Source: Prochlorococcus marinus str. MIT 1214 (GTDB taxonomy: Bacteria; Cyanobacteriota; Cyanobacteriia; PCC-6307; Cyanobiaceae). From it: 64,000 bases of DNA. Shown here in pieces: positions 55,053 through 58,131 of the stretch. Position numbers and translations under genes: made by a program. The DNA is taken from assembly GCF_027359355.1 (NCBI RefSeq), contig NZ_CP114777.1, positions 1,550,001 through 1,614,000 on the forward strand, read 5' to 3'. A model generated the notes under the pieces. The model did not search any database. It saw only the letters and a list, made by a program, of their open reading frames with translations, and was not told the DNA's origin. The stretch's first letter is position 1. Each line of letters starts with the position of its first letter.

Positions 55053-56258
55053 ATGTCTAAGCGTTCCCTGTCAAGTCTCGGCGCTGATGACTTATGCGGC
55101 AAACGTGTTTTAGTAAGAGTTGATTTTAATGTCCCATTAGGAGATGAGGGGCAAATAACTGATGACACAAGAATTCGTGCTGCTTTACCAACTATTAATG
55201 ACCTGCTTGAGAAGAGTGCAAGAGTTATTCTTTCTGCTCATTTTGGTAGGCCAAAGGGAGCGGTTAATGAAACAATGCGTTTGACTTCTGTTGCTCAAAG
55301 ACTAAGTGAATTGCTTGGTAAAACAGTTGTGAAAACTGAAAGTTGTGTAGGAGCTGAAGCCAAGTCAAAAGTAGATGCTATGTCCAATGGCGATGTTGTT
55401 CTTTTGGAAAATGTTCGATTTATTGCTGGGGAAGAAAAAAACGATACAGAATTTGCAAAGGAATTAGCTTCTTTGGCAGAAGTTTATGTTAATGATGCTT
55501 TTGGAGCTGCCCACCGCGCTCATGCTTCAACCGAGGGAGTTACAAAGTTCTTAAGTCCTTGTGTTGCTGGTTATTTAATGGAAAAAGAACTTAAGTACCT
55601 TCAGGGAGCTGTAGATCAACCTAAAAGACCATTGGCAGCTATAGTTGGCGGTTCAAAAGTAAGTAGTAAGATCGGAGTGTTGGAGTCTTTGATTGATAAA
55701 TGTGACAAGATAATTGTTGGTGGAGGGATGATATTTACTTTTTATAAAGCTAGAGGATTATCGGTTGGTAATAGTCTTGTAGAAGAAGATAAGCTTGAAT
55801 TGGCAAGTGCTTTGGAGAAGAAAGCGAAAGATAAAGGAGTTGAGTTTCTTTTGCCTAGTGATGTTGTGTTGGCCGATAATTTTTCTCCTGATGCAAATAG
55901 CAAATCTTCAAAAGTTGATGCTATTAGCGAAGGTTGGATGGGATTGGATATTGGTTCAGAATCAGTTTCACTTTTTCAGGATGCGCTGAAAGATTGCAAA
56001 ACAGTTATTTGGAATGGACCAATGGGTGTGTTTGAATTCGAGAAATTTGCAAATGGAACCAATGCGATAGCAAATACTTTGGCTGAATTAAGTGCTCAAG
56101 GATGCTGCACAATTATTGGAGGTGGAGATTCAGTGGCAGCAGTTGAGAAAGCAGGTTTAGCGAAAAAAATGTCTCATATCTCGACTGGGGGTGGTGCTAG
56201 CCTTGAACTCTTGGAAGGGAAAGTTCTTCCTGGTGTTTCTGCTTTAGATGATGCTTAA
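55053..56258 (+). CDS. pgk: Phosphoglycerate kinase
   Basis: A 401-residue Pgk, used in the Calvin cycle (forming 1,3-bisphosphoglycerate) and in glycolysis. Conserved features: [12 protein letters not shown] (about 18-29), the substrate-binding [31 protein letters not shown] and the C-terminal [15 protein letters not shown] and [13 protein letters not shown]. Length is normal. It is monocistronic: a long leader precedes it and a terminator hairpin follows 25 bases after the stop. Confidence 0.98.
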
Positions 56259-56282: not shown

Positions 56283-56315
56283 AATAAAAGTAGGTTTTAT
56301 AAACCTACTTTTATT
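56283..56315. terminator. Bidirectional hairpin terminator after pgk
   Basis: Stem AATAAAAGTAGGTTT at 56283-56297 pairs with AAACCTACTTTTATT at 56301-56315 across the three-base loop TAT; on the plus strand a run of seven T follows, the classic Rho-independent pattern for pgk. The left arm begins in the spacer and the right arm extends into the last codons of the minus-strand gene at 56297, so it can serve both convergent transcripts. Confidence 0.9.
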
Positions 56316-57016
56316 TTTTTTGTAATTAAATAAATCCCTTCTGGATGCGTTATGATTGCTGATATAGTTTGAGAACCAGGGTTTAAGGGCGCTTGAATAT
56401 ATTTAAATAGACCACCTGATTGATTCGGCTTAATACCAAAGATATCATTTGATACTTTTTTATTATCCTCGTCTTTAAGTACGATCATTCCACTAGCAGT
56501 TAAAGAATTGTCTAATGGGCTTTCAATAATTAAATTCATTTCATATTTTTCACCAGTACGAACTTTGTCTGGAGAAACAATTTTTATAATAAGAGGTGAA
56601 TTTTGGCTATTCAGAATTGATTCTTCATCAATAACTTCATATCCTTTGATTTTATTTTTGTAGGTCTCTAACTTGACAGTCTGTTTAGTATGTAGATGAT
56701 AAATTATATCATTAATTTTTCTTTTAGATATGATTTTGATATCTAGAAATGATTTATCTTGATCATTGCTTAATGGTTGAATTGACCATTTTGCATTTTT
56801 ATATTTTTTTCTGAAGTCTAAATACTGTTTATTAAATTGATTGAATGATTTGTGCAGAAATAGATCTTTTAGCAAATTATCCTCTCTTTTATTAAGATGT
56901 TTCTCCAATTGGTTAATTAATAACTGATTATCTATATTTTTACTAAAAGCAGAATTGATCATTAGGGGATATAGCAATAAAAAAACTATTGATTTCGCTA
57001 TGAGTGAATTTCGCAC
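56297..57016 (-). CDS. Conserved-looking exported protein of unknown function
   Basis: A 239-residue protein I do not recognise. It begins with a typical signal peptide (positive RNSLIAK, hydrophobic SIVFLLLYPLMINSAFS, cleavage likely after Ala or Ser near residue 25). The mature part is Lys/Asn-rich. From about residue 145 the run SPDKVRTGEKYEMNLIIESP and later LNPGSQTISAIITHPEGIYLITKKIKV reads like an immunoglobulin-like beta-sandwich. Start is GTG 57016 with AAAGGTAGG just upstream. It shares its 56-base upstream region, containing a large palindrome, with murG. Confidence 0.7.
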   Translation of the reverse strand: MRNSLIAKSIVFLLLYPLMINSAFSKNIDNQLLINQLEKHLNKREDNLLKDLFLHKSFNQFNKQYLDFRKKYKNAKWSIQPLSNDQDKSFLDIKIISKRKINDIIYHLHTKQTVKLETYKNKIKGYEVIDEESILNSQNSPLIIKIVSPDKVRTGEKYEMNLIIESPLDNSLTASGMIVLKDEDNKKVSNDIFGIKPNQSGGLFKYIQAPLNPGSQTISAIITHPEGIYLITKKIKVGL

Positions 57017-57029
57017 GCCTACCTTTTTT

Positions 57030-57070
57030 ACTCAATATAACTTAGCCTTCAAGGATAAGTTATATTGAGT
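57030..57070. repeat. 41-bp near-perfect palindrome between the exported-protein gene and murG
   Basis: ACTCAATATAACTTA at 57030-57044 and its exact reverse complement TAAGTTATATTGAGT at 57056-57070 flank an 11-base centre GCCTTCAAGGA, whose CCTT/AAGG is itself palindromic. Only one base pair (G/A at 57045/57055) and the central base break the symmetry. It ends 2 bases before the murG ATG and occupies the place of a ribosome-binding site. It is not followed by a T-tract on either strand, so it is not a simple terminator. Confidence 0.85.
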
Positions 57071-57072
57071 TT

Positions 57073-58131
57073 ATGCCTCGCCTTTTAATTGCTGCAAGCG
57101 GAACGGGTGGGCATATTTATCCTGCATTGTCTTTTGCGAATTCACTTCCAAATTCTTGGAAAATTGAATGGTTAGGTGTTCCAAATAGGCTAGAGATTGA
57201 ACTGGTTCCCAAGAAATACAATTTAATAAAGCTTAGAGTCGGAGGATTACAAGGAAATATTTTTAGAAAAATGTTTGATTTATATAAATTACTCTTTGCT
57301 TCTATCCGGGTCTCTTTTCTATTACGTCAAAAAAAAATTAATGTTGTTTTTACTACTGGGGGGTATATCTCTGCTCCTAGCATTCTCGGTGCAAAACTGA
57401 CTGGCATCCCTGTAGTGTTGCATGAATCTAATGCTATTCCAGGGAAAGTAACTAGGTTATTAGGTAGATTTTGTGACCATGTTGCGTTAGGAATTTCATC
57501 AGCATCTGATTATTTGCCAGGGTGTAGAACAAGTTTTACTGGAACACCTGTAAGGTCAGAATTTATTTTGGATCAGTCTCTTCCACCTTGGGCTCCCCTT
57601 GGAGAGGGGATATTGATTGTAGTTATGGGAGGCAGTCAAGGCGCAATAAAAATGAATGAAATGGTGAGGAATATCTTACCTTGGTTGCTTGCTAAGGGTT
57701 GTAGAGTTATTCATCTGACCGGTAAAAATGATTATTTCTATAAAAAATTAGATAAAGTTGATACTAACGCTAATTTGGTTGTAAGAGAATTTAGTAATGA
57801 AATCTCGGCCTTGCTTCAAAATGCTGATCTTGCAATAAGTAGATCAGGATCTGGTGCTATTTGTGAATTAATGGTATCTAAGACCCCTTCAATCTTAATA
57901 CCTTTCCCAGCTTCTGCTGATCAACATCAAGAACTAAATGCTGCTTATATGGCTAGATATGGAGGGGCTGTAATAGTGAATCAACATGATCCAGAAAAAG
58001 ATATTTTGAAAAAAACTATATCTCATTTGATTGATTCTAATTCTCTCATTGAAATGAAAGCAAATATGAATAATTATGATTATATTAATCCTGAAAAAAA
58101 GATATTTGAGATTATCAATTCGATTAGTTAA
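57073..58131 (+). CDS. murG: UDP-GlcNAc:undecaprenyl-PP-MurNAc-pentapeptide N-acetylglucosaminyltransferase
   Basis: MurG makes lipid II at the inner membrane face. The 352-residue GT28 protein begins LLIAASGTGGHIYPALSFAN with the GTGGH loop (about 10-14), and has the ESNAIPGKVTRLL region, the second glycine loop VVMGGSQGAIKMNEMV, and the UDP-binding LAISRSGSGAICELM and PFPASADQHQELNA. The start ATG 57073 directly follows a 41-bp palindrome and has no visible Shine-Dalgarno. It overlaps the end of the cobC/cobD-like gene by 8 bases. Confidence 0.96.
   Translation: MPRLLIAASGTGGHIYPALSFANSLPNSWKIEWLGVPNRLEIELVPKKYNLIKLRVGGLQGNIFRKMFDLYKLLFASIRVSFLLRQKKINVVFTTGGYISAPSILGAKLTGIPVVLHESNAIPGKVTRLLGRFCDHVALGISSASDYLPGCRTSFTGTPVRSEFILDQSLPPWAPLGEGILIVVMGGSQGAIKMNEMVRNILPWLLAKGCRVIHLTGKNDYFYKKLDKVDTNANLVVREFSNEISALLQNADLAISRSGSGAICELMVSKTPSILIPFPASADQHQELNAAYMARYGGAVIVNQHDPEKDILKKTISHLIDSNSLIEMKANMNNYDYINPEKKIFEIINSIS

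Follow-up and report, generated by a model that had tools for sequence, protein, structure and literature searches.

A palindrome upstream of murG in Prochlorococcus marinus MIT 1214: a probable template-switch scar beside an old, putatively shared promoter

The spacer between murG and a divergently oriented gene of Prochlorococcus marinus str. MIT 1214 carries a near-perfect palindrome, which raises the question of whether this symmetry serves a function, e.g., as an operator or as a hairpin in the leader of the murG transcript, or whether it arose in another way. Coordinates refer to the window, i.e., the whole stretch of 64,000 nt that was analysed. The spacer comprises 56 nt (57017-57072) and separates a minus-strand open reading frame (ORF) with its GTG start at 57016 from a plus-strand ORF with its ATG start at 57073. 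Three features define the locus:

56297 to 57016, minus strand: divergent gene, an ORF for a protein of unknown function
57073 to 58131, plus strand: murG, assigned with Pfam and NCBIfam
57030 to 57070, no strand: near-perfect palindrome of 41 bp, with 19 of 20 pairs and one central base

A single-site palindrome between murG and a divergent gene

The two arms of the palindrome (57030-57049 and 57051-57070) are 20 nt long each, 95% complementary and 1 nt apart. Their outer parts (57030-57044 and 57056-57070) are exact complements over 15 nt, the sole mispair is 57045 G versus 57055 A, and the 3' edge stops 2 nt short of the murG ATG. The description given in the first-pass annotation, a near-perfect 41-bp palindrome with exact 15-base arms 2 bases from the start codon, is thereby confirmed. 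Chance does not explain it: none of 12 dinucleotide shuffles of the 64-kb window contained an exact inverted repeat of at least 12 nt (loop of at most 12 nt). The window itself holds five such repeats, two of which reach at least 15 nt, namely the palindrome and a hairpin at 56283-56315; the three others are exact over at least 12 nt. A search for the 41-mer across the genome, as had been proposed earlier, returned a single place in all 1,934,849 bases at up to 3 mismatches, while the 15-mer arm, at up to 1 mismatch, matched both arms and one other site. A dispersed palindromic repeat is therefore rejected. The same applies to a phage origin, since the region 56800-57400 is without a match in a phage collection of 50,697 records; the inner 29-mer of the palindrome likewise had zero exact matches in viral_contigs. 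An intrinsic terminator at 57030-57070 was also rejected: the terminator scanner listed 56283-56315 and 56213-56230, and not the palindrome, and the T run on the plus strand precedes the stem instead of following it on the 3' side. The terminator-like hairpin at 56283-56315 has 15 pairs followed by a T run, and is located between the divergent gene, whose 3' end it overlaps, and a plus-strand ORF (55053-56258), which we take, by reading, to be phosphoglycerate kinase.

Of the flanking products, the one encoded by murG has both glycosyltransferase-28 domains above the Pfam cut-off, and NCBIfam TIGR01133 covers its residues 3-348 with 244.4 bits, slightly below the curated cut-off of 250.25. For the divergent protein (56297-57016), there is no Pfam match above cut-off (the best being BatD-like, E 0.039) and no match in NCBIfam; by reading of the N-terminus alone, it would be exported. 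Of the 66 family loci read outside the genus, 65 have a homologue upstream of murG and in the opposite orientation (46/46 and 19/20 in the two sets described below). Given this lasting neighbourhood, the divergent protein is a candidate cell-envelope protein.

Unequal conservation of the two arms and a heptamer shared by much of the family

Within the genus, 41 genomes (own included) were searched, 35 of which gave a match and 6 did not. Two matches were left out, one being weak and located elsewhere (G008), the other covering query positions 1-387 only and not reaching the spacer (G020). The comparison thus consists of 33 spacers, that of MIT 1214 and those of 32 relatives; 23 further loci, most of which duplicate spacers of this set, were not added as rows. 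In the coding tree, G009 is sister to MIT 1214 (support 93/80), followed by G004 (100/100). Outside the genus, murG was located in 106 genomes. A first set consisted of the 26 best-scoring loci and 20 chosen ones, with murG on the plus strand in all of them. A second set of 20 spacers was read against selection bias and combines 10 spacers of genus g18 (3 from the 106-genome set and 7 from a wider search) with 10 in which murG lies on the minus strand. Altogether, the 66 spacers outside the genus represent 59 of the 106 genomes and 7 others. The murG start assumed in the second set was off by one base (minus-strand loci) or by several (g18), and distances from this set were not used. An order-level search (60 genomes requested, completeness of at least 90) returned genomes of the same family in 61 of 61 cases, own included.

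A dyad that is kept for protein binding or RNA pairing should show conservation or co-variation of both arms. Among the genomes compared, the palindrome is restricted to MIT 1214. None of the 32 relatives has the dyad. Within the 50 nt before murG, their longest exact stems measure 4-8 bp (8 in G034) versus 15 bp here, and no more than 13 of the 20 arm positions are paired (maximum in G023 and G012) versus 19 of 20 here. In 46 family spacers of other genera, the longest exact stem within the last 60 nt is 3-8 bp. Moreover, the two arms are conserved to very different degrees:

57030 to 57049, no strand: left arm, the old, conserved copy and presumed donor; 581 of 640 alignment cells identical in 32 relatives
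57051 to 57070, no strand: right arm, the variable and presumably recently rewritten copy; 442 of 640 cells identical in 32 relatives

For the outer right arm (57059-57070), identity amounts to 234 of 384 cells, with the inserted base at 57062 scored as different in all 32 relatives. The first-pass annotation had made its functional readings depend on symmetry in close relatives, and no such symmetry was found. Because it is not kept in the 32 relatives, a conserved palindromic operator or regulatory RNA hairpin is unlikely, and was rejected on these comparative grounds.

The conservation of the left arm centres on a short element that is placed as follows:

57038 to 57044, read as TAACTT on the plus strand for murG and as TAAGTT on the minus strand for the divergent gene: heptamer TAACTTA, the proposed shared -10; 222 of 224 cells identical in 32 relatives
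57032, minus strand: predicted start of the divergent gene, also the -18T in the murG direction; T in 30 of 32 relatives
57050, plus strand: predicted start of murG, 12 bases past the first T of the heptamer, placed by the spacing rule of PMC10268837 as given in the part of that paper used here

TAACTTA is self-complementary except for its centre and presents T, A and T at the -10 positions (-12T, -11A, -7T) on both strands. The exact form TAA(C/G)TTA is found upstream of murG in 43 of the 66 spacers outside the genus (35/46 and 8/20). In the first set, these 35 matches lie within the last 60 nt before murG, compared with a single match among the 38,964 other positions of these upstream regions. 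Nine of the remaining 11 spacers have the element at one mismatch, although places at one mismatch also occur in 7.6% of control windows. In the second set, the exact heptamer is present in 8 of 10 spacers of other genera and in none of the 10 of genus g18 (L133-L142, last 60 nt before murG), though the gene pair is retained there. The g18 spacers are A- and T-rich, and the promoter may have been replaced in this genus. Fourteen G+C-rich spacers (L103, L105-L107, L109-L111, L143-L147, L150, L151) carry the element within a longer common context, which by eye reads CTTTTAAGTTAGGC in 10 of the 14.

In a common class of bidirectional promoters, described in the sections of PMC10268837 drawn on here, the two directions have reciprocal -7T and -11A, their starts are separated by 18 bp, and position -18 carries a T; 18 bp is also the commonest start spacing of bidirectional promoters in the relevant part of PMC12825309. 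By analogy, the left arm probably holds a symmetric -10 element that is read both ways, with murG transcribed from about 57050 and the divergent gene from about 57032. The T at -18 in the murG direction is present in 35 of 46 family spacers, whereas the mirrored -18T for the divergent gene (an A on the plus strand) is present in 9 of 46 only. At the offset of the predicted murG start, no base is preferred in either the 32 relatives or the 46 family spacers, and a consensus promoter scan of the spacer found no -35/-10 pair. We found no literature on a bidirectional promoter at a cyanobacterial murG. The main text of PMC5607370, on start sites of Prochlorococcus MED4, does not mention murG; starts for that distant murG may be listed in its supplementary tables or in the earlier MED4 map. 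The earlier proposal of one element common to both divergent genes is strengthened by the conserved left arm, through which shared control of both genes is plausible, but not by the dyad.

Alternatively, the conserved left arm could be the binding site of a transcription factor and not the -10 of two promoters. Indeed, some preference extends beyond the heptamer: of the 46 family spacers, 29 have a C four bases ahead of it, 31 a G two bases past it and 29 a C three bases past it. However, conservation is strongest at the T, A and T of the two-strand -10 together with the -18T, 26-49 nt before the murG ATG, and a transcription-factor site seems unlikely.

Origin of the right arm

While the left arm is old, the right arm of MIT 1214 departs from the majority of its relatives in four rare or private states, as judged by column tallies over 32 relatives and with a count that depends on where the aligner places the gap. 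Position 57060 is T here and G in 28 of 32 relatives; 57062 is an inserted A, with the base absent in 32 of 32 in the alignment used; 57067 is G here and T in 30 of 32; and 57069 is G here and A in 31 of 32. All four states equal the reverse complement of the left arm, and every one of them raises the complementarity of the arms. The direction of change suggested by this pattern is read from the states of living relatives. Of these states, the sister genome G009 shares two (57060 T and 57069 G); G001 and G034 also carry 57060 T, and G040 and G039 carry 57067 G. Two further features overlap the right arm:

57041 to 57059, no strand: inner imperfect stem (57041-57048 with 57052-57059), the presumed priming site; contains the only mispair, 57045/57055
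57056 to 57062, no strand: second heptamer copy, TAAGTTA; present at this right-arm site in only 1 of 33 genus genomes (own)

Nineteen of 32 living relatives, G009 and G004 among them, have the inner stem with 6 or more of its 8 pairs, compared with 2.3% when its right part is shuffled. No paired changes were found in it: none of the 32 relatives reaches 8/8 pairs, and the 8 relatives with 7/8 always have the same position mispaired, the left base there being A, C or G and the right one A or G. In MIT 1214, the mispaired position carries the majority base on either side. That it lies inside the inner stem is expected if copying started beyond this stem.

Taken together, these observations favour a reading that we consider likely, in which a template switch (quasipalindrome correction) beside an old shared promoter left the palindrome as a recent, lineage-restricted scar. 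The ancestral spacer would have contained the short imperfect inner stem. During replication, the growing end would have folded back onto this stem, which would have primed synthesis; the outer left arm, from about 57040 back to 57030, would then have been copied into 57060-57070 before the return to the template. The outcome would be an inverted second copy of the conserved TAACTTA heptamer. The two states shared with G009 may mean that the switch preceded the split from G009 and was followed by decay there, or that the palindrome was built in more than one step.

The palindrome could also have been made by stepwise point mutation, whether under selection or not, and finding two of the four states in the sister G009 and two of the four in other relatives would fit such a history. 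To obtain a null for this process, 3-6 random edits (80% substitutions) were introduced into the last 27 nt before the ATG of the real spacers of G009, G004, G023, G021 and G037, with 20,000 trials per edit number, and only those arm placements were counted that had a loop of 0-3 and pairing at either of the two innermost positions; the null includes no selection and no measured mutation spectrum. Under these settings, 19 of 20 pairs were reached in 0 of 400,000 trials from the five relatives, 18 pairs in 1 and at least 17 pairs in 20, of which 15 began from G009. Moreover, a single copying event accounts for all four states. Stepwise mutation therefore appears distinctly improbable as the source of the palindrome.

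The functional readings of the dyad fare worse. If transcription began upstream of the left arm, the palindrome would be part of the murG leader, and the hairpin could block ribosome binding, as had been suggested in the first-pass annotation. RNA beginning at 57024 does fold stably (-21.5 kcal/mol, z -4.49). As a variant, the murG mRNA might be leaderless, and from the right-arm copy of the heptamer, a start at about 57068, 5 nt before the ATG, would be expected. However, RNA from the predicted start at about 57050 carries one arm and folds at -3.8 kcal/mol, with 199 of 200 shuffles folding at least as well, so that no hairpin would lock the ribosome-binding region. In addition, 88-nt stretches of G009 and G004 that span the equivalent of the palindrome fold weakly (-9.4 and -9.2 kcal/mol), and the stem is not conserved among the 32 relatives. 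A locked ribosome-binding site is thus unsupported, and a role of the palindrome as leader hairpin, or a leaderless murG mRNA, is very unlikely. Finally, the shared operator of that annotation, on which a regulator bound to the 41-bp dyad would jointly control murG and the gene of the putatively exported protein, has in its favour the near-perfect symmetry between divergent genes and the strongly conserved left half, but the right half is unconserved, the dyad occurs at a single site in the genome and in no relative, and the proposal deserves hardly any credence.

Consequences and comparison with known systems

As a template-switch scar, the palindrome would probably be close to neutral for murG translation, because the murG mRNA would start at its centre and carry one arm only. 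More generally, a dyad between promoters can look perfect and still be a scar of replication, not an operator; here, a conserved donor arm stands beside an unconserved copy. The conserved heptamer, in turn, suggests that, in much of this cyanobacterial family, murG and an uncharacterised gene on the opposite strand may share a single short symmetric promoter element, which would tie the divergent protein to cell-wall synthesis. A further, doubtful possibility is that the inverted duplicate of the -10 created by the template switch gives this strain two overlapping two-way promoters. In that case, a new murG start at about 57068 would yield a nearly leaderless mRNA, the divergent gene would also be transcribed from about 57050 with a longer leader, and the balance of both genes would be altered.

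Template-switch scars and bidirectional -10 promoters are both already known kinds, and the palindrome would be a further case. With the bidirectional promoters of PMC10268837 and PMC12825309, as far as the sections used here describe them, the element shares the reciprocal -11A/-7T, an 18-bp distance between the (here predicted) starts and the -18T in one direction. It differs in that the mirrored -18T is missing, and in that the starts are predictions and the evidence consists of conservation of one gene pair across many genera.

Quasipalindrome-associated template-switch mutation (the Ripley model) is documented, in the part of PMC7202029 considered here, for a hotspot in E. coli thyA and for lacZ reporters. 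As in these systems, an imperfect inverted repeat would have been perfected by copying from arm to arm, and the clustered changes all raise pairing. In contrast to them, the event at murG is known only as a footprint between species, part of which is found in the sister genome too; it lies beside a promoter element, and a short inner stem would have been lengthened outward by 11 nt (57060-57070). Template switching has also been reported to create hairpin stems in genomes (Monttinen and Loytynoja 2022, PMC8794818). In the cases covered by the portion of that study used here, as at murG, a reverse-complement copy yields a long stem in one lineage. Those cases concern microRNA and rRNA genes and rely on inferred ancestors, whereas the present one concerns a bacterial intergenic spacer and is based on the comparison of living relatives.
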